Of a DNA stretch of 64,000 nucleotides, positions 7,592 through 39,376 are shown piece after piece. The translations under genes were made by a program, and so were the position numbers. The number at the start of each line of letters is the position of its first letter. The stretch's first letter is position 1. The notes under the pieces are model-generated. The model did no database searches and had not been told where the DNA came from. It saw only the letters and a program-made list of their open reading frames with translations. This DNA is from Marinobacter nauticus. GTDB taxonomy: Bacteria; Pseudomonadota; Gammaproteobacteria; Pseudomonadales; Oleiphilaceae. Location: positions 248,001-312,000 of the forward strand of contig NZ_RBJB01000005.1 of the NCBI RefSeq assembly GCF_003634635.1, in the 5' to 3' direction.

Positions 7592-7982
7592 GCCCGCAAG
7601 TTTGGTGCTGTGCCACGGGTGAGGAAGCCCTCCCTGAGACCGCTACGAGCACCCGCAAGCGGGTCCAGCCAGCAATCATAGATTGCCGTCGTTCTGCTGC
7701 GCATGAAGCTTCGCTTCATAATCGCTTGCCTCACCCATGTGCGCTTTGCTTTGGCCATCCATGGCCAAAGAAATCTCAGGGAGGGCTTCCTCACCCGTGG
7801 CATCATGCTTTGGTGATTGCTTATCGGAATACGCTTGTTCTTACTTTTCTGTGCCGGTTCACTTTCTCTGTCTGTAGCCATTGTTTTATTGAGTTTACTG
7901 TTGTAGTTTTCAGCTAACAAGTGTGCGCTGAAGGTTTCGTGCATGGTGAGTGTGTTCAACAGCAAATGGTGACAAGTAAAAG
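7592..7982. other. Gene-free stretch holding a large hairpin repeat
   Basis: Between the terminator at 7591 and the desaturase start at 7983 I see no credible gene. The stretch holds the hairpin element at 7611-7802 and, after it, about 180 bp of AT-rich DNA that probably carries the desaturase promoter. Short reading frames across it are produced by the inverted repeat and look unlike genes. Confidence 0.7.
7611..7802 (+). repeat. Hairpin element, copy A (expanded core)
   Basis: The two outer arms, 7611-7639 and 7774-7802, are perfectly complementary over 29 bp. The interior starts with ccgctacgagcac (7640-7652) and ends with catgtgcgctt (7737-7747) and ggccatccatggcc (7753-7766), parts of the core shared with the other three copies. 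About 84 bp sit inside the first inner hairpin. This insert contains three more stem-loops: acccgcaagcgggt, gcaatcatagattgc and atgaagcttcgcttcat. The element lies in intergenic DNA after a complete terminator. Confidence 0.85.
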
Positions 7983-18483: not shown

Positions 18484-18532
18484 GTCGGGCGTGGGAGTTT
18501 TACTCCTCTAGCCTCTGAGTGCGGAGGTGGGC

Positions 18533-18640
18533 GCCGGTGGCCCGGGGGTTCTGAAAAGCGCTCCTGGCGGCACATCCATGTGGCGCTTGTGTTCCGCCAT
18601 CCATGGCTCCACAAATTTTCAGAACCCCCGGCCCACCGGC
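18533..18640 (+). repeat. Hairpin element, copy B
   Basis: Arms 18533-18557 and 18616-18640 are complementary at 24 of 25 positions. The interior of 58 nt holds CACATCCATGTG and GCCATCCATGGC, the two CC-loop mini-hairpins of the shared core, in the same order as copies A and D. The arm sequence is mostly unlike the other copies. Confidence 0.85.
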
Positions 18641-18690
18641 TCCTGCGTGCTCAGGAGAGGGCTGTCAGAACAGCATGCTCAGTGGTATGG

Positions 18691-18802
18691 GAGTTGGTAC
18701 CGGAGGGGCTGTCCAAAAATGTCGGAGGCCATGGATGGCCGGAGAGAAGCGCACATGGATGTGCTTGTAGCGGTTTTTGGACAGCCCCTCCGGTACCAAC
18801 TC
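18691..18802 (-). repeat. Hairpin element, copy C (inverted relative to A, B and D)
   Basis: Arms 18691-18719 and 18774-18802 are perfectly complementary over 29 bp. The interior is exactly 54 nt. Its reverse complement matches the interior of copy D at nearly every position, including gcacatccatgtgc and ggccatccatggcc. It lies 50 bp after copy B and in the opposite orientation. Confidence 0.88.
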
Positions 18803-38638: not shown

Positions 38639-38750
38639 CTGTGTCATTGGGGGCTACTTTCCAAAAACCGCTACGAGCACATCCATGTGCGCTTCTCTCA
38701 GGCCATCCATGGCCTTCGAAATTTTTGGAAAGTAACCCCCAATGACACAG
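38639..38750 (+). repeat. Hairpin element, copy D
   Basis: Arms 38639-38667 and 38722-38750 are complementary at 28 of 29 positions. The 54-nt interior, 38668-38721, nearly matches that of copy C reversed. It contains the two mini-hairpins gcacatccatgtgc and ggccatccatggcc, plus the linker gcttctctc. The element lies between divergent genes (YaiI and a histidine phosphatase). Confidence 0.88.
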
Positions 38751-38809: not shown

Positions 38810-39376
38810 ATGAAAGCGTTTGTGTTTTGTTTGATGGCCATCGGCGCTTTAGGGTTTTCTCAAACCCATGCCTCAGAAAAGGACGCCTGGGCTGCCCTTA
38901 GAGAGGGGAGAGCCGTTTTGATGCTGCGTCATGCCCTGGCTCCAGGCACCGGTGATCCAGTCGGGTTTGTGCTCGGAGATTGCAGTACCCAGAGGAACCT
39001 GAACGACACGGGGCGTGAGCAGGCCCGGGCGTGGAAAGCGTTTCTGGCAGAACATGGAATTGATGAGGCGAGGGTGTTTTCCAGCCAGTGGTGTCGATGT
39101 CTTGAGACCGCCCAGGAAATGAATATGGGGCCAGTGACTGAGTGGCCGGCTCTGAATTCATTTTTTCGCAACCGGGGCGATGGCCCGCAACAGACCCGTG
39201 AAACCATCAACTTGGTGAGTGCCCTTGGGCCCGGCATGCCGGTGGTGATGGTCTCACACCAGGTGAATGTGACGGCGTTGACGGGCATTTTTCCGGCTTC
39301 GAATGAAGGGGTGATTCTGGCGTTGCCGTTGTCGGAGAACCCGGACATTCTGGCGAGGGTGGCGCCGGGGCAATAG
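38810..39376 (+). CDS. Secreted histidine phosphatase family protein
   Basis: The 188-residue protein starts with a signal peptide (FVFCLMAIGALGFSQTHA, cleaved near residue 22), so it acts in the periplasm. The catalytic His is in MLRHALAPGTGDP (RHA in place of RHG), a second conserved Arg is in QWCRCLETAQ, and a SHQVN segment gives the other catalytic His. The family has phosphatase activity in many members; the substrate is unknown. GAGGAATC precedes ATG 38810. It is 60 bp after hairpin copy D. Confidence 0.85.
   Translation: MKAFVFCLMAIGALGFSQTHASEKDAWAALREGRAVLMLRHALAPGTGDPVGFVLGDCSTQRNLNDTGREQARAWKAFLAEHGIDEARVFSSQWCRCLETAQEMNMGPVTEWPALNSFFRNRGDGPQQTRETINLVSALGPGMPVVMVSHQVNVTALTGIFPASNEGVILALPLSENPDILARVAPGQ

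Follow-up and report, generated by a model that had tools for sequence, protein, structure and literature searches.

Four intergenic elements in the window (the whole stretch of 64,000 nucleotides of Marinobacter nauticus DNA that was analysed) are best read, from sequence comparison, as members of an unlisted, high-copy, TwoAYGGAY-like family of candidate Csr/Rsm-binding RNA hairpins. Each element would encode, on the strand that reads CATGGATG, an RNA fold of approximately 108 nt, in which an outer stem of approximately 25 to 32 bp carries two short hairpins with A-N-GGA-X hexaloop apexes. Once transcribed, both loops may be bound by one Csr/Rsm dimer, and the copies could titrate CsrA/RsmA or recruit it to their own transcript. 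Copies are presumably kept alike mainly because their paired middle part is replaced, the probable mechanism being gene conversion from one copy to another, and they can apparently travel in small transposons. Taken as a whole (RNA fold, loop binding and cassette replacement), this Csr/Rsm hairpin explanation is on balance the probable one, if modestly so.

Hairpin elements in the window

All four intergenic hairpin elements proposed in an earlier note on this DNA are present where it placed them (Table 1), and a recount of arm pairing returned exactly its figures. The shared core of approximately 54 nt that it described holds for three copies and fails for the copy at 7611 to 7802, in which hairpin 2 is longer. 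Its 'CC loops' are the CATGGATG apexes when the opposite strand is read. For the two-hairpin core pattern, the window has three occurrences (0 of 100 shuffles) and the 3.98-Mb genome 16, compared with none for the reversed pattern. R1, a covariance model built from 70 copies, gave the long form 27.5 bits, compared with 86 to 113 for the other three. Genes next to the elements encode a LuxR-type response regulator and a fatty acid desaturase (one pair), an acyl-CoA dehydrogenase and a short-chain dehydrogenase (a second pair), and a YaiI/YqxD protein and a histidine phosphatase (a third).

Table 1. Positions of the hairpin elements and their parts in the window
Feature	Position	Strand	Basis
Focal element	38639..38750	- (RNA strand minus)	Model match 38641-38748, R1 109 bits, arms 28/29
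Focal element against RF01731	38639..38750	-	36.6 bits, under the cut-off of 43
Outer-stem arm (3' arm on RNA strand)	38639..38667	-	Arm pairing and paired ortholog changes
Outer-stem arm (5' arm on RNA strand)	38722..38750	-	Arm pairing and paired ortholog changes
Hairpin 1 of RNA strand	38701..38714	-	Apex CATGGATG, A-N-GGA-X loop
Hairpin 2 of RNA strand	38677..38690	-	Apex CATGGATG
Second copy	18691..18802	+ (RNA strand plus)	Model match 18693-18800, R1 113 bits, arms 29/29
Third copy	18531..18642	-	R1 86 bits, arms 24/25; opposed to the 18691 copy, approximately 50 bp apart
Long-form copy	7611..7802	-	Arms 29/29, R1 27.5 bits, fold; extra structured segment in hairpin 2
Extra segment of long form (approximate extent)	7652..7734	-	Sequence read against short form

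Opposed pairs of elements are frequent, 50 to 240 bp apart (18531 to 18802 in the window, and the pairs at loci L001 and L006). In the three opposed pairs of this genome that were inspected the RNA strands are directed away from each other.

Conservation of an RNA fold on one strand

If G-U pairs are tolerated on the strand that acts as RNA, the same pairs show as A-C on the opposite strand. Read on the CATGGATG strand, the arms of a first set of elements (91 elements, 2521 arm pairs, 100 mismatches) contain 56 G-U versus 9 A-C mismatches. A partly overlapping set of 88 elements gave 56 versus 6, and the 71 of these 88 that lie outside the seed pattern gave 48 versus 4. Orthologs of the focal element at its own site have 19 G-U versus 1 A-C, while a Stenotrophomonas locus has 34 versus 9, plus 68 other mismatches. 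Such counts share ancestry between copies; as distinct column-type events, the ratio of G-U to A-C is 11 to 1 at the focal site and 12 to 8 at the Stenotrophomonas locus. Biased mutation does not readily explain the G-U excess, since the trend in unpaired columns of the same strand is opposite to that needed (12 C>T versus 75 G>A, few such columns being C).

The earlier note had called for a check of whether the arms covary. This check showed that the arms vary yet stay paired. Across the 70 copies, double changes occur in 29 of 35 pairs and the 27-bp stem includes nearly all pair types. At the focal site, where the alignment of 30 rows includes two antisense matches and one long form, 24 of 37 pairs have double changes, a level reached in none of 500 shuffles and far above that of slid controls. 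Among the focal-site orthologs, 20 of 27 outer pairs have changed on both sides. Selection on structure, one of the two possibilities raised earlier, is thus supported by strand-biased mismatches together with covariation, and the strand concerned can be named: on this comparative evidence, the conserved entity is the RNA of the CATGGATG strand.

Loops resembling Csr/Rsm sites

Both loops resemble binding sites of CsrA/RsmA, a regulator that binds RNA. In the 88-element set, an ANGGA loop is present in 82 of 88 and 86 of 88 hairpins and CANGGAYG in 76 and 78 of 88. The commonest apex in both hairpins is CATGGATG (48 and 38 of 88), and many other apexes are of the form ANGGAX, for example AGGGAU. 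Sequestering RNAs of the Csr/Rsm system are each encoded by a single gene that has its own promoter and contains many sites. The elements share with such sRNAs (RsmX/Y/Z and CsrB-type) the ANGGAX hexaloops directly on stems. They differ in that each copy has two sites, copies are numerous and dispersed, and no signal of a promoter was detected. The promoter search covered the sigma-70 type, using weight matrices, and the score did not exceed that of shuffles (P = 0.11 for the RNA strand; the other figure P = 0.34).

In excerpts of PMC4005645, a high-affinity Csr/Rsm site is an ANGGAX hexaloop directly on a stem, with N and X variable, and A-N-GGA hexaloops in this position are what the elements contain. 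CATGGATG is the Rsm site of Pseudomonas putida cfcR: transcripts of cfcR carrying it are bound by RsmA, RsmE and RsmI in vitro, and a GGA change at this site relieves repression in vivo (excerpts of PMC6849547). Open-licence papers, for the most part titles and abstract openings, gave no link of these repeats to Csr/Rsm.

CsrA was detected in 71 of 72 element-bearing genomes compared with 7 of 8 element-free genomes, element-free status being based on a class-wide search that scored the best 10 candidates per genome. As CsrA is found nearly everywhere in the genomes tested, its co-occurrence with the elements is uninformative. In one genome with elements (G298) CsrA was not detected, and the sole copy seen there (L221) has intact loops.

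Relation to TwoAYGGAY

It had been suggested earlier that no named family has this layout. The layout is in fact that of the Rfam family TwoAYGGAY (RF01731, clan CL00106), but the copies score below its curated gathering cut-off of 43 bits, and to this extent the suggestion stands. Scanned at gathering score, Rfam returned nothing in the window, and tRNAs alone in 20 further loci with elements or their neighbourhoods. When eight loci were scanned in E-value mode, RF01731 matched the elements of L009, L055 and L092 (37.9, 36.8 and 33.0 bits); L071 gave a match of 31.7 bits off the listed element, and the focal locus (L016) was not among the matches. A genome-wide search with RF01731 as the only model gave 18 matches up to an E-value of 10, every one of them an R1 element on the same strand. 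The cut-off was reached by none of the 18, the best scoring 40.6 bits. One of 14 control genomes gave a match, under the cut-off. In the reverse test, a weak one, R1 scored 14.5 to 22.3 bits on ten TwoAYGGAY-type loci. Among 18 loci taken from the matches listed and scanned, four exceeded the RF01731 cut-off: two from Lachnospiraceae (89.6 and 81.6 bits), one from Oceanobacter (L057, 55.3) and one from Halothiobacillus (L056, 49.7).

Common descent of the elements with TwoAYGGAY is likely. The two have in common full-length same-strand matches and two GGA-apex hairpins within an outer stem of poorly conserved sequence. A-Y-GGA-Y apexes were found in both hairpins, and the outer stem is conserved in structure and not in sequence, as described for TwoAYGGAY in excerpts of PMC4333381. 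Some subtypes appear by eye to have GGA/GGA internal loops next to hairpin 1, which may be compared with the tandem G-A pairs of TwoAYGGAY. In contrast to that family, the elements are shorter, their best score lies under the cut-off, they reach at least 97 copies per genome and many of their loops are ANGGAX instead of AYGGAY. Since 2010, TwoAYGGAY has stood as a candidate RNA without assigned function, and a Csr role for it was left as a prediction by the proposing paper (excerpts of PMC2864571 and PMC4333381). The elements form a high-copy relative whose strand, fold and loop constraint can be deduced from the sequence alone, and this makes the Csr hypothesis directly testable. If it is true, a global regulator is the target of repeats scattered through the genomes of many gamma-proteobacteria, and the Rfam cut-off misses the copies of this genome.

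Copy number, distribution and mobility

R1 matched at least 54 places in the M. nauticus genome (best 150 of 1989 candidates scored; 55 matches, one being the antisense of another). A search of Marinobacter genomes for relatives of the focal element, as the earlier note had proposed, found elements in all 40 genomes sampled, at 3 to 97 copies each, two genomes having at least 97. In an even sample of Gammaproteobacteria, searched with stricter filters than the own genome and with the best 10 candidates per genome scored, R1 matched at least 72 of 370 genomes and at least 62 of 273 genera. Among the matches listed were near-identical cores in Marinobacter records and arm-bearing elements in those of Stenotrophomonas, Luteimonas, Halomonadaceae and Saccharospirillum. 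A blastn search with one 108-nt copy as query gave no match to plasmids or phages.

All 54 own-genome copies are intergenic according to a custom ORF caller, which missed an ORF at 38810 to 39376, so that gene distances are approximate. Relative to neighbouring genes, the RNA strand is sense to both in 15 cases, antisense to both in 16, convergent in 13, divergent in 9 and unknown in 1. The orientation of elements to genes is random, and on this ground a fixed 5' or 3' UTR role was rejected.

The main rival explanation, possible if not probable, is a selfish repeat. In this view the element is a mobile but non-autonomous hairpin, which a host enzyme moves in the form of single-stranded DNA or RNA, or which travels within transposons. 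It would have no regulatory role, fold and loops being what the mobilising enzyme reads. Single-stranded DNA is also expected to fold strand-specifically, and random orientation agrees with such a repeat, as does the swing from 3 to 97 copies among the 40 genomes of the genus, a range more easily reconciled with a repeat than with a fixed regulon. In genome G342 the element is apparently carried in a small transposon: ten near-identical copies (L246 to L255) were fetched, arms included, and by eye nine of them lie within a unit ending in apparent terminal inverted repeats and short duplications, while one is without the left end of the unit. This hairpin with its arms between repeats resembles MITE-type transposons, from which the own-genome copies differ in having arms that vary from copy to copy and only a weak flank motif. 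That motif, a positional one beside the arms in approximately half of the own copies, has a log-likelihood of 109 versus 68 in one shuffle (3' side) and 79 versus 63 (5' side). Against a selfish repeat, most of the relatives fetched retain the focal copy at its site (see below), and the own genus yielded neither a clean empty site nor a target duplication. Furthermore, the adjacent loop base is free to vary whereas GGA is kept, in line with the Csr/Rsm consensus.

If the Csr/Rsm hairpin explanation is correct, the copies may form a gene-converting reservoir of Csr/Rsm decoys, in which copy number and transcription set the level of free RsmA/CsrA and cassette replacement renews the loops while the arms diverge. 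This reading is tentative and perhaps on the unlikely side. If true, it would describe a family of repeats on which a regulatory protein exerts selection.

Dispersed intergenic palindromes that at times occur as opposed pairs are also known as REP/BIME and CGTC-tagged repeats, REPs being 20 to 40 bp long and tagged at one end by GTAG or CGTC (excerpts of PMC3733652). In contrast, the elements are approximately 108 nt long with a three-way fold and have no constant tag across subtypes. By eye, GTAG stands beside hairpin 2 in one subtype only, with ACGG or GGAG in others, and membership of the REP family was rejected.

In genome G182 (L262 to L265) the element lies inside a longer near-identical repeat, the flanks of which also look inverted.

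Double-stranded palindrome or RNA hairpin

A protein-binding cruciform had also been suggested earlier, and the rival reading considered here is a structure acting as DNA, either a cruciform or a protein-binding double-strand palindrome. Folded as single strands, both strands greatly exceed shuffles in stability, the CATGGATG strand to a larger degree, and the commonest apex is palindromic. However, a DNA structure predicts equal tolerance of G-U and A-C, whereas the mismatches observed are strand-biased. A palindromic DNA apex CATCCATG should also keep its symmetry. The third loop base takes all four letters while GGA is retained, which disfavours a DNA palindrome. The palindromic third base is missing from approximately two fifths of the apex octamers in the tally, with GGA kept in most of them (118 of 137; the table includes antisense and non-apex octamers). 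A role as DNA structure is therefore very unlikely.

How the arms come to differ

The second possibility raised in the earlier note was that insertion writes an inverted copy of local sequence, one arm existing beforehand, given that near-identical cores are flanked by arms that vary from copy to copy. The focal flanks were matched in 123 genomes of the genus, the best 29 of which were fetched. In 27 of these 29 the focal element is at the same site (at least 92 bits); of the other two, L042 has a long form there and L040 has no match. The arms were thus not written at insertion in the own genome, and species differ in arms at this one site with both sides changed in pairs.

At one Stenotrophomonas site, at least three whole-cassette alleles lie within the same flanks. 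Read by eye from the alignment of 30 genomes, the alleles number 2, 11, 14 and 1, with two genomes left over. The sister genomes L266 and L267 are identical at 679 of 685 letters upstream and 571 of 590 downstream, compared with only 79 of 106 (approximately 75%) in the element. Between their arms, eight pairs have changed on both sides and a ninth on a single side; each sister still has 25 of its 27 pairs intact. This is a clear case of arms changing jointly through cassette replacement, and an inverted copy made at insertion, refuted for the focal and Stenotrophomonas sites, is highly improbable in general. With these by-eye labels, a flank tree, itself poorly resolved, requires 9 allele changes versus a minimum of 3 (mean 11.3 with shuffled labels).

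The pattern within the Csr/Rsm hairpin explanation is probably one of gene conversion in which the paired middle part is exchanged as a whole cassette, and recombination between strains at one site could yield the same result. We read the arms outside the converted stretch as drifting by paired changes. Replacement of the middle part together with paired drift outside it would give the same core and different arms that are still complementary. Within the Stenotrophomonas alleles, single paired changes are also seen, with no intermediate. These could be produced by template switching between arms at replication, which would keep complementarity without selection, but it predicts neither the strand bias of leftover mismatches nor the conserved GGA, and the unpaired columns have no C>T excess to mimic that bias, which makes it scarcely credible.

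Flanks at the Stenotrophomonas loci were too messy for a clean empty site to be obtained. At the first site in this genus (L295, positions 2208 to 2313, genome G550), two opposed elements are apparently fused into a hybrid with one arm from each, which pairs more poorly and scores 59.8 bits.

A long form with an extra segment in hairpin 2

In the long form, the loop of hairpin 2 is the site of an extra structured segment of approximately 82 to 85 nt. The loci concerned are the window copy at 7611 to 7802, L042, L319 and L321, and L326 to L355. A 106-nt stretch around this segment is present in 83 of 124 genomes of the genus, and long, copy-specific arms were found at 16 of the 21 long-form sites read (30 loci). 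An Rfam scan of the long form gave nothing convincing, no family fitting it. Two of the Stenotrophomonas alleles have a segment of similar layout at the equivalent loop position.
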